Position numbers and translations under genes: made by a program
NCBI GenBank assembly: GCA_019931185.1
Contig: JAINDK010000025.1
Location: forward strand, 1 to 64,000
Direction: 5' to 3'
Source of the DNA: Bryobacter sp. CoA8 C33
GTDB lineage: Bacteria > Acidobacteriota > Terriglobia > Bryobacterales > Bryobacteraceae
Length of the DNA stretch: 64,000 nucleotides
The notes under the pieces: model-generated
Databases searched by the model: none
What the model was told of the DNA's origin: nothing
The model's input: the letters and a program-made list of their open reading frames with translations, nothing else
Part shown: positions 20,093-22,773 of the stretch, one piece after another
How the letters are laid out: every line of letters begins with the position of its first letter
How positions within the stretch are numbered: the first letter of the stretch is position 1

Positions 20093-20819
20093 AAAGTGGG
20101 CGCTCCAGCATTTCGGGCAGCCGCCAGCCGAGCCTTTCCCTCTCCCACCCTGGAATGCAACACGTTGCTCTCCCGTTCGGATTCCGGATGAAACGCGGGA
20201 CAATGTCTTTGCCGCCCCGTCTACCCTCTGCCAGTCTGCCGGTTACAGCGAGGTACAACTCCAAAGCCCGGATTCCAGGAATTCGCCCTCCTCGGTGGCC
20301 CAATCGAGGCGAGCCGGCGCTGGCGCCGAGGGTAAATCGCCGAACACGGCAGCCACCTTCCAACGCCGGTTTGCCCGCGCCAAGATCCTCTCTTCCCGCC
20401 CCTTGGCTTCGAGAAGAACTCTCTTTTCCCCAAATAGAATTACTTCCTGGTCCCAACCGAAACCCGCTCGAAAACCACCCTGAACCCCGCCGCCTCCATG
20501 GAATGAACTCGGGTGTCGAAGCTTTCGCTGTGAATTCTTGATTCGCCTCAGCCGACTTCCCCCGCGACCACGCCGGGCTAGCGAACATAGACAGCGCCTC
20601 AACTATGTTCACTCGCTTGCCATCCAGCATCACCCACCCAGAGCGAAACCCCGAATGCCATCATCGATGGTTTCCAAACGCAACTAGCGTTTCTTGCCAG
20701 GGGCATAGTCCTGCCCAGGTTCAGCCGCCATTCACTTCAAGGATCAGAAATAGTACCGATCTGCCTATAGTTCTATAGGTTTTACCTTAGAGCAGTGTTT
20801 ACCCTTTTCCTGTACGGAT
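20093..20819. other. Long non-coding interval upstream of the first PEP-CTERM gene
   Basis: No gene is supported in these 727 bp. A 195-codon open frame on the - strand (20046-20633) lacks recognisable motifs, a good start context and the codon bias of neighbours. The right part holds several short inverted repeats: GAACATAG/CTATGTTC (20583-20610), CCATC/GATGG (20658-20670), AAACGC/GCGTTT (20676-20692) and CCTATAG/CTATAGG (20764-20779). The C-over-G bias typical of the window is weaker here. Confidence 0.6.
20764..20779. promoter_or_regulatory. Perfect palindrome 41 bp before the PEP-CTERM gene
   Basis: CCTATAG and CTATAGG flank a 2-nt centre. It sits where a promoter or operator would be expected for the gene at 20820. 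A different short inverted repeat, CTAAG/CTTAG (22007-22023), sits at a similar place before the second PEP-CTERM gene. Binding protein unknown. Confidence 0.35.
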
Positions 20820-21569
20820 ATGAAAGACCATCTTTTTCAACTTACTCTCAACGCAATCCTTTTGCTAACTGTCCACGGCTCGGCATCCGCAACATCTATC
20901 TGGTTGCGGGATACGCCCGTCCCCTCGGATCACTTTCACAACAACGGAACGGAAAGCCTCAAGCGCGAGGGCGTCGGTACGATTGATAACGGCAACTACT
21001 GGGCTGGTATGCTCGATTTTCAGGCGAACCTCGTCTCGGGAAATGCTTCTGACCCCAATTGGTTTAATCTACTCACATATTGCATCGACCCCTTCAAAAG
21101 TCTCAACGTTGGCCCCGCGAACGGTGCCGGTGGTCTCTTCACCGAAATGACCCTCACTCAATATTTTACGACCTACACCCCGGCTGTCTTCAATGTGGCT
21201 ACCACGGTTAATCGCATACAAAAGCTGTGGGCCCTTGCCTTCAACCTCTCCGATGATTCCGCGAACAACGCCGCTGCCTTCCAGTTCCTGATCTGGGAAT
21301 ACATCGCCGACGGAGCCGCCATCGATTTCACCAATGGAAGAGTCAAAATATCGGACGCCACAATTCGAAACATCGCCATCAACTGGAACGATCAGGGTAA
21401 TACGGCCACCACTTCCACGACACTCTTCGCAATTCAGGGCAACGATAAGCAGAGCTTTCTCCGCGTCGACCCCAGTATCCCCACCAATGAAAATGTTCCA
21501 GAACCTGGAAGCTACGCTCTTATCGGTTGTGGCTTGTTGGGCCTTGCTCTGTCCCGCCGCCGGAAATAA
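20820..21569 (+). CDS. PEP-CTERM sorting domain protein, paralog 1
   Basis: The 249-residue protein has an N-terminal signal peptide ending near SASA and a C-terminal PEP-CTERM tripartite signal: VPEPGSYALIGCGLLGLALSRRRK has the Pro-Glu-Pro, a hydrophobic helix and a basic tail (226-249). Such tails are cut and transferred by an exosortase, fitting surface or biofilm-matrix proteins. The body shares blocks with the next gene: LLTYCIDP, RIQKLWALAF and FQFLIWEYIADG. The shared TYCIDP cysteine block and WEYIAD are seen in several short PEP-CTERM proteins. No exosortase is in the window. A strong terminator follows. Confidence 0.9.
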   Translation: MKDHLFQLTLNAILLLTVHGSASATSIWLRDTPVPSDHFHNNGTESLKREGVGTIDNGNYWAGMLDFQANLVSGNASDPNWFNLLTYCIDPFKSLNVGPANGAGGLFTEMTLTQYFTTYTPAVFNVATTVNRIQKLWALAFNLSDDSANNAAAFQFLIWEYIADGAAIDFTNGRVKISDATIRNIAINWNDQGNTATTSTTLFAIQGNDKQSFLRVDPSIPTNENVPEPGSYALIGCGLLGLALSRRRK

Positions 21570-21595
21570 GCTGCTTCCTCTCTCCAATCCACTCT

Positions 21596-21630
21596 GCCGG
21601 ACCCGCGAGGGTCCGGCCCTTTTCTTTTCT
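21596..21630 (+). terminator. Rho-independent terminator
   Basis: A 9-bp perfect GC-rich stem (21596-21604 with 21609-21617) with a GCGA tetraloop is followed by CCTTTTCTTTT. It ends the first PEP-CTERM gene's transcript, so the second paralog must have its own promoter. The rest of the interval 21631-22071 contains only the short inverted repeat CTAAG/CTTAG at 22007-22023 and no supported gene. Confidence 0.9.
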
Positions 21631-22071
21631 AACTTTGAAGCGCCATCCCCGGACGGCGCTTTTCCCTCAAAAACTCCTGGAAGCTCTGTTCCGGCCCGCC
21701 CGTCCCAGCCACCTTCCACCTCTTCCCATCCCGCCTCATCCTATTGCCTGCGCCAGCCCGCCAGCCCAACCTGGCCCTTCCAGAGCGACGATCATTCCCG
21801 GTGGCCCGTTCCCTCCAACGTCGCCAAAGCTACAAATGGAACACAACCCCCAGTCAAGCTCACTGCCGTCTCTTACAAGATCTCTGAAGTCCGTCAGCGA
21901 ATCCGGCAACGATGGCGTCTCTCCCTGCAAATCTTCCATCAAAATCGCTCCTGAATCGCGAAGCTGCCCTTTCAGCAAGCTCGGCCGGGCCAAGTAGTTC
22001 CAGGTACTAAGTAAACTCCTTAGCCATAGTCCCAGTGTGTTCGAGGGGCTAGTCTCAATTCATAGAGAAGT

Positions 22072-22773
22072 ATGAAGACTAAACATCATTCCTTTTCGCT
22101 GTTGCTGGGCACCCTGCTGGCAGCCATTTCCCCTTGCGCCGCTTCTACAATTGTCTACCTGCGGGACGCTCCACCAGCCGGAGACTTTTACCACAACGGG
22201 CTCTACCTCTCCGGCGCAGGTTCGCTCGGCGCCAACTCCGTCCGCGCTGGCCTATTTGAATTACAAGCCAGCTTCAATGACCTGCCCGGCTCCTACTTCA
22301 ACCTCCTAACGTACTGCATCGATCCCTACATTCCCCTCAGTGTCGCTCCCGCGGGTGATTCGGGCTACGCCTTCCAATGGATATCCCCCAACGAATATGG
22401 CTTCTCTCAAGCTCTCACCCGGAAACTCCAAAAGCTCTGGGGCAATGCCTTCGCCGACGCTCAGGCCTCACCGACGGCCGCCGCCGCTTTTCAATTCCTG
22501 GTTTGGGAATACATCGCCGACCCCATCTTCGACTTCTCCGCCGGTCACGTTCAGCTCAACAACCCCGATGTCCTTGCGCAAGCGCTCACCTGGCACAGCC
22601 AACTCCCTTCATGGACCAGTAACGTTCTCCTCCATGTCTTCGATGGCCGCTCCGCCAGCCGGCAGAGTTTCCTTCTCTACGAAAACACGATGCCCATGGC
22701 CGAAAACCCCGAACCTTCCACTTGGCTTATGCTCGGCGCCGGTCTACTGGCGCTGCACCGGTCTCGGCGATAG
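22072..22773 (+). CDS. PEP-CTERM sorting domain protein, paralog 2
   Basis: The 233-residue product parallels its neighbour: a signal peptide, YLRDAPPAGDFYHNG matching WLRDTPVPSDHFHNNG of paralog 1, LLTYCIDP, KLQKLWGNAF, FQFLVWEYIADP, and a C-terminal NPEPSTWLMLGAGLLALHRSRR sorting signal (212-233). The two clearly arose by tandem duplication and have diverged. It should be exported and processed by an exosortase encoded elsewhere. The start has GAGAAGT just upstream. Its last 47 bp overlap the 3' end of the convergent oligopeptidase gene, so the sorting signal lies inside the overlap. Confidence 0.9.
   Translation: MKTKHHSFSLLLGTLLAAISPCAASTIVYLRDAPPAGDFYHNGLYLSGAGSLGANSVRAGLFELQASFNDLPGSYFNLLTYCIDPYIPLSVAPAGDSGYAFQWISPNEYGFSQALTRKLQKLWGNAFADAQASPTAAAAFQFLVWEYIADPIFDFSAGHVQLNNPDVLAQALTWHSQLPSWTSNVLLHVFDGRSASRQSFLLYENTMPMAENPEPSTWLMLGAGLLALHRSRR

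Follow-up and report, generated by a model that had tools for sequence, protein, structure and literature searches.

Thioester domain (TED) adhesins (PF08341: SfbI, Cpa, CpTIE, BaTIE, and SaTIE) bind their partners covalently, and the excerpted text of a 2015 survey reports TEDs only in Gram-positives (PMC4450167). Excerpts of that survey and of a further paper give three sequence motifs for the domain: [YFL]C-hydrophobic-hydrophilic, TQxx-hydrophobic-W, and a weak hydrophobic-Q-hydrophilic-hydrophobic-hydrophobic motif that holds the bonding Gln (PMC4450167, PMC6194298). In the proteobacterial PEP-CTERM regulon (PrsK/PrsR/PrsT, sigma-54; Haft 2006), a cis-motif lies upstream of many PEP-CTERM genes, most of which form transcription units of their own; according to the excerpted Haft 2006, further PEP-CTERM regulators and motifs outside the sigma-54 class are still to be discovered (PMC1569441).

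We analyzed two tandem genes in a 64,000-nucleotide stretch of DNA from Bryobacter sp. CoA8 C33 (contig JAINDK010000025.1; hereafter the window). Their products resemble TED adhesins in predicted fold and, judged by excerpts of the TED literature, in having a YC-x-D motif in a strand, a QxxxW motif in a helix, and a C-terminal Gln beside the last strand; they share with class I TEDs, as those excerpts describe them, a short link from the third helix to the last two strands. They differ from these adhesins in belonging to Gram-negative Acidobacteriota, in having a PEP-CTERM anchor instead of LPXTG, in being a single short domain with no isopeptide stalk by Pfam, and in their low similarity (~10% sequence identity in structural alignment, and scores below the Pfam cut-off). 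Like the proteobacterial regulon, the locus has a cis-motif common to many PEP-CTERM genes, and such genes are mostly separate transcription units; here, however, the motif is TAGTACTA, with no PrsR above cut-off and no −24/−12 site. MetJ is a ribbon-helix-helix protein with small tandem palindromic operators. The boxes described below share with ribbon-helix-helix operators an 8-bp two-fold symmetric form and occasional pairing, and the CopA_SO probe contains TAGTACTA (PMC8706911, whose excerpted text does not concern PEP-CTERM genes); unlike those operators, they have no such protein linked to them, and their spacing preferences (suggestive, near 8–9 and 16–18 bp) are weak.

It is quite possible, if short of probable, that Bryobacteraceae display covalently reactive TED adhesins via exosortase and that one TAGTACTA-binding regulator switches these along with pilin-like, polysaccharide, and further PEP-CTERM genes. 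Exosortase-displayed TEDs, if real, would be a Gram-negative counterpart of LPXTG-anchored TED adhesins, would bring covalent binding chemistry into a soil lineage of Gram-negatives, and would supply PEP-CTERM proteins, which mostly lack a function, with one that can be tested; the box offers a single family a concrete candidate motif, with which its regulator might be captured. In the open-access journal literature searched, we found no paper with both 'thioester domain' and 'PEP-CTERM' and none with both 'Bryobacter' and 'PEP-CTERM', and the sole match for 'thioester domain' with 'Acidobacteri' concerns, in its matching part, isopeptide bonds.

The two genes and their counterparts in the genus

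Gene 1 (20820..21569, + strand) encodes a signal peptide, a thioester-like domain at about aa 25–220, and a PEP-CTERM segment at aa 226–249; gene 2 (22072..22773, + strand) encodes a signal peptide, a thioester-like domain at about aa 26–208, and a PEP-CTERM segment at aa 213–233, the domain being ~190 residues long in each. The initial annotation, made from the window alone, described them as diverged PEP-CTERM paralogs separated by a strong terminator, and this holds. The proteins are 37% identical (92/248, E 1e-37), both exceed the Pfam PEP-CTERM cut-off of 20.7 bits (gene 1: 27.0; gene 2: 22.8), and both contain LLTYCIDP, the KLW block, and WEYIAD. The intrinsic terminator after gene 1 (21596..21617, + strand; a stem plus a T-rich tail) has a predicted energy of −21.1 kcal/mol (z = −4.56; 0 of 200 shuffles equally stable), so each gene probably has its own transcription unit. 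An exosortase (PF09721, E 1.9e-70) is present in the window's own genome, a 5.05-Mb draft (G000), and PF09721 occurs in all 14 genomes with PEP-CTERM matches among the 21 relatives that include G000.

Among the eight genomes of the genus (G000–G007) we found two copies in G000, none in G005, and one in each of the six others, the second copy (gene 2) being confined to G000. Where flanks are visible, the single-copy orthologs have on one side a gene of ~215–251 aa, downstream of glutamate dehydrogenase, and on the other usually a prolyl-oligopeptidase-like gene (lgt follows in G002). The window pair stands at the same syntenic place, which points to a lineage-specific tandem duplication or to loss elsewhere. 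GTDB-220 contigs contained a single relative, in a Bryobacteraceae MAG (L288), whose protein is identical to the G007 ortholog, and the phage records searched contained none. Sequence comparison establishes the predicted secretion signal, the PEP-CTERM tail, a single syntenic ortholog in each of six further genomes of the genus, and conservation of the TED residues treated below. We consider it probable, with some room for doubt, that the two genes arose when a PEP-CTERM-sorted TED protein was duplicated in tandem in this lineage, and that they are separate units with TAGTACTA-type sites of their own.

Predicted thioester domains

The gene 1 and gene 2 proteins are predicted to be TEDs, an identity that is the stronger result for this locus than the shared control which the initial annotation had suspected. 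Pfam TED (PF08341) gave 14.7 and 14.5 bits for gene 1 and gene 2, below its cut-off of 22, a database rather than a biochemical criterion; 7/8 homologs matched at E 1 or better, and one of the eight (ortholog L295, 22.5 bits) passed the cut-off. A family sequence profile searched against the PDB found no TED chain (best E 0.32). AlphaFold models, built from an alignment of eight sequences, had mean pLDDT of 73.7 (gene 1) and 70.5 (gene 2), with the domain core mostly at 70–94 and low tails, and both predicted models have the beta-barrel plus three-helix fold of TEDs. With VIA-align, the 13 best PDB entries were TED adhesins for gene 1 (Z 9.1–10.9, next row 3.6; 138–173 residues aligned, rmsd 2.9–4.2) and likewise for gene 2 (Z 8.9–11.6, next row 2.2); entry titles or papers identify 12 of these entries as TEDs, and the thirteenth, FNE (5dcq), we take to be one. 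Foldseek placed TED chains at all of ranks 1–19 for gene 2 (E 1.7e-5; rank 20 with probability 0.01). Its agreement for gene 1 was weak: FNE occupied ranks 1–2 (probability 1.00 and 0.98, E 1.3e-3), and the rest of the best 50 matches listed had probabilities of at most 0.08.

The three TED motifs have counterparts in gene 1 as TYCIDP, AFQFLIWEY, and KQSFL. Cys88, Gln155, Trp159, and Gln211 (gene 1 numbering) are invariant in 8/8 homologs. The putative thioester cysteine, Cys88, is encoded at 21081..21083 (+ strand; motif as excerpted from PMC4450167), and the putative thioester glutamine, Gln211, at 21450..21452 (+ strand). The QxxxW helix motif, usual but not universal in TEDs, is present as Q155-F-L-I-W159 (21282..21296, + strand). 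From the homolog alignment, the putative counterparts in gene 2 are Cys82 (22315..22317, + strand) and Gln198 in RQSFL (22663..22665, + strand). The motifs depart from the TED pattern in Phe for Thr before Gln155 and in Lys/Arg for a hydrophobic residue before Gln211. Of 140 PEP-CTERM proteins sampled, 9 matched a regular expression combining the three motifs (mean 0.025 and maximum 2 after shuffling), as did 2 of 1417 predicted proteins outside that set, one of these two being the G006 ortholog itself. Four of the nine belong to the gene 1/gene 2 family; the others (L077, L102, L111, L117, and L130) are leads, since only L117 has a Pfam TED match and that match is below the cut-off.

After export and exosortase processing, the two proteins would be seated in the outer layer, where a Cys–Gln thioester would react with amines on a partner, so that they would serve as adhesins that bind covalently or as cross-linkers of the matrix. 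A rival reading, which we think rather unlikely, keeps the TED-like fold without formation of the thioester and makes these proteins ordinary non-covalent surface proteins. It draws on the low Pfam TED scores and on two homologs in which the residue after Cys is Gly (TYCGDP) where the TED motif asks for a hydrophobic one; against it, neither the Cys nor either Gln varies among the homologs, whose identity to gene 1 goes as low as 32%.

Enrichment of a TAGTACTA-like box before Bryobacteraceae PEP-CTERM genes

We compared the number of PEP-CTERM upstream regions holding each 6-mer with order-1 resamples. The regions were the best-scoring ones (G000: 21/26 listed, two below cut-off included; G006: 30/37; G003: 29/45, 30 being taken and L099 dropped; G011: 25/26, L124 dropped), with start codons chosen heuristically. 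GTACTA ranked first in G000 (8/21 regions, 0.7 expected), G006 (12/30, 1.78 expected), and G011 (10/25, 1.68 expected), and AGTACT in G003 (14/29, 1.32 expected; GTACTA there 14, 1.9 expected). The search for a motif common to PEP-CTERM upstream regions, which the initial annotation had proposed as a check, thus returned GTACTA/AGTACT as the top 6-mer in four Bryobacteraceae genomes. GTACTA was also first when five further genomes of the genus were sampled (6/9 regions, 0.72 expected), and AGTACT was present in 4/8 sampled regions of four other Bryobacteraceae genera (G008–G010 and G012; 0.25 expected). The box was not enriched in G020, which has PEP-CTERM genes and belongs to another family of the order (GTACTA in 1/16 regions, 0.35 expected). 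After homologs were collapsed, GTACTA was found in 38/80 regions against 4.3 ± 1.9 (maximum 8 in 60 shuffles). Real upstream regions as background gave the same picture for TAGTAC (G000: 8/21 PEP-CTERM vs. 4/140 others, Fisher P = 8e-6; G006: 12/30 vs. 7/151, Fisher P = 1e-6); G003 regions were compared with the G006 upstream background.

Expectation maximization seeded with TAGTAC returned the palindromic consensus TAGTACTA. The site matrix was hand-rounded from that run, and matrix scoring of PEP-CTERM regions is therefore partly circular, which the 6-mer tests are not; 39 of 120 regions had no site even at the loosest matrix threshold. When G006 and G000 were sampled in 80 stretches totaling 1.6 Mb, at least two boxes preceded 3/7 PEP-CTERM genes and 3/626 others. 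One of these three others is a pilin-like gene (Pfam pilin match below cut-off) with a receiver-HTH_3 regulator after it; another encodes a receiver domain, and its G006 ortholog is also near an exact TAGTACTA; the third is a beta-helix gene transcribed divergently from a polysaccharide gene of the Wzz/kinase type.

Both genes of the window have the box upstream. Gene 1 has two operator-like sites (all sites given without strand), TAGTACCG at 20751..20758 (score 9.2 of a maximum 13.6), in the spacer of a possible promoter, and TAGTTCTA at 20768..20775 (score 9.1), 17 bp after the first. Gene 2 has AGGTACTA at 22002..22009 (score 9.3) and the weak TAGTTCCA at 21995..22002 (score 6.7), which overlap in a layout unlike that of gene 1. 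The window's own sites are thus imperfect, 9.3 being the best. Among gene 1 orthologs the two sites are 17 bp apart in G001, G003, G004, and G007 (4 of the 6 in the genus), 16 in G006, and 52 in G002. At another PEP-CTERM gene (L004 plus orthologs, five genomes) TTTTGTACTA and CTTTAGTACT are kept, and the TTTTGTACTA block overlaps a TAATAT. A 22-base block, GCGATTGCCCGAAGAAGGACTA, upstream of one PEP-CTERM gene (L004:512–533), is identical in the orthologs L031, L053, L054, and L082 and was not found elsewhere among the sampled loci.

The initial annotation rightly suspected shared control and named the wrong motif. A palindrome before each gene and the words CCTTAG and CAGTGT had been its evidence. 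The first palindrome (20764..20779), CCTATAG-TT-CTATAGG, 40 bases before the gene 1 ATG, does have perfect 7-bp arms, with two unpaired bases (TT) between them; a repeat with arms of at least 7 and a loop of at most 4 within 100 bp arose in 1.8% of shuffles. It is partly borne out: at its center stands TAGTTCTA, the later member of the site pair with the recurring 17-bp spacing, and the palindrome is then the surroundings of that box. The second (22007–22023) is at chance level, with 5-bp arms and a 7-base loop that recur in 36% of shuffled regions. Both words do occur in both upstream regions, but neither is enriched upstream of PEP-CTERM genes (CCTTAG: 16/80 regions vs. 9.4 ± 2.9 expected; CAGTGT: 6/80 vs. 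7.6 ± 2.7), and no homology was detectable between the stretches that precede the two genes (110 and 130 bp; alignment score 21, shuffle mean 20.3). The shared motif thus exists as a TAGTACTA-like box instead, and its presence at both genes and at other PEP-CTERM genes partly supports the suggestion that one factor may control each copy separately.

Possible modes of control

A possible sigma-70-like promoter of gene 1 lies at 20743..20771 (+ strand; ATCAGA, 17 bp, TATAGT; matrix scan score 7.4), with the −10 at 20766–20771 and a weak −35; it is tentative because a stricter scan of the gene 1 upstream region saw no + strand promoter. Box placement was recorded for 76 boxes, in the 41 regions that combined at least one box with a promoter scoring at least 6, all promoter calls being computational. 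Relative to the −10 center, 14/76 boxes lay at −12 to +6 (6.2 expected), a count biased by −10 calls that partly overlap the box, 5/76 at −24 to −12 (4.3 expected), 15/76 at −60 to −36 (7.9 expected), and 15/76 at −150 to −60 (28.8 expected). Each of the four best promoters (scores 13.6–14.2) has a box in the spacer, 9–11 bp before the −10 center. Because several of the promoters with the highest scores have the box on the −10 itself or in the spacer that separates it from the −35, we infer mainly repression: one dimeric DNA-binding protein, a putative repressor, would bind the TAGTACTA-type boxes and hold the surface-protein genes off until a signal releases them.

The serious rival is that the box is bound by an activator, or by a factor acting from the spacer to remodel the promoter. 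This is the less likely reading in our judgment, yet the excess of sites 36–60 bp upstream of the −10 center (15 vs. 7.9) and the many regions with multiple upstream sites speak for activation, whereas the spacer sites of the four best promoters, computational as these calls are, suit occlusion.

For the trans factor of the proposed repression, we considered the orphan receiver-HTH_3 regulator at G006:C3:3309044 (G000:C104:11458), which combines a receiver with a Cro/CI-type HTH. In G006 it follows the pilin-like gene with three boxes and is ~2 kb from a PEP-CTERM gene, and it occurs in 9/14 relatives with PEP-CTERM genes and in 0/7 without. Its distribution across genomes does not fit, however, and we regard it as an improbable candidate and have set it aside: it was not found (E 1e-15) in G007–G010 and G012, although AGTACT occurs in 4/8 sampled regions of G008–G010 and G012, and G020, which shows no enrichment of the box, does have the regulator. 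The boxes, moreover, precede the pilin gene in G006 and G002, and in G000, G001, G003, G004, and G005 the regulator has no box of score 8.5 before it. The regulator gene spans L164:8846–9667 (G006:C3:3308846–3309664) and G000:C104:11458–12078, with identity of 90–93% in the genus (7/8 genomes), 74% in G011, and 65% in G020.

That the box is no operator at all, being a remnant of insertion-sequence ends or an effect of composition, we consider very improbable. Exact copies of the TAGTACTA 8-mer are rare genome-wide, at 13 (G000) and 10 places in two genomes (reversed-pattern control: 92 and 114), with only 2 in each genome preceding PEP-CTERM genes, and 5 of the 13 in G000 lie within a repeated end sequence, ...ACACAGTAGTACTAG. 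The composite AGTACT-N2/3-AGTACT, tried as a family-wide regulon finder and rejected, is likewise not enriched over 61 genomes (19 places in 15 genomes vs. 46 for the reversed control). The enrichment nevertheless holds against both dinucleotide-like resamples and real upstream regions, the sites are conserved between orthologs, and the flanks of the PEP-CTERM sites are without the repeat. The ...ACACAGTAGTACTAG repeat, probably an insertion-sequence end, is found in G000 at C14:156, C19:156, C28:865, C88:10893, and C113:33259. The neighbors of the composite pair (a gas-vesicle gene, an exosortase gene, NarL-type and XRE regulators, and several positions inside coding sequence) are anecdotes, given that the reversed control outnumbers the composite.

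Control through sigma-54 and PrsK/PrsR, for which RpoN/PrsR sites were to be checked, is the known system for PEP-CTERM genes of Proteobacteria (PMC1569441 and PMC9850573, in excerpt) and has below-cut-off NtrC-like matches to the PrsR model in 21/21 genomes in its favor, but it is hardly credible here, with PrsR (TIGR02915) above its curated cut-off in 0/21 genomes, the strict −24/−12 pattern in 0/118 regions and the relaxed one in 1/118 (0 in G000 regions), and the motif restricted to Proteobacteria in the excerpted Haft 2006 (PMC1569441).

Boxes were also seen at two further kinds of gene. A PilZ-like gene (below Pfam cut-off; L234:4226–4468, G000:C108) has CAGTACCA and TAGTACTC upstream, and its counterpart in G006 (L236/L275) has TAGTACTA upstream. 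An exosortase gene (L262:5418–6338, G039:C20) has AGTACTCACAGTACT ~55 bases before its start.
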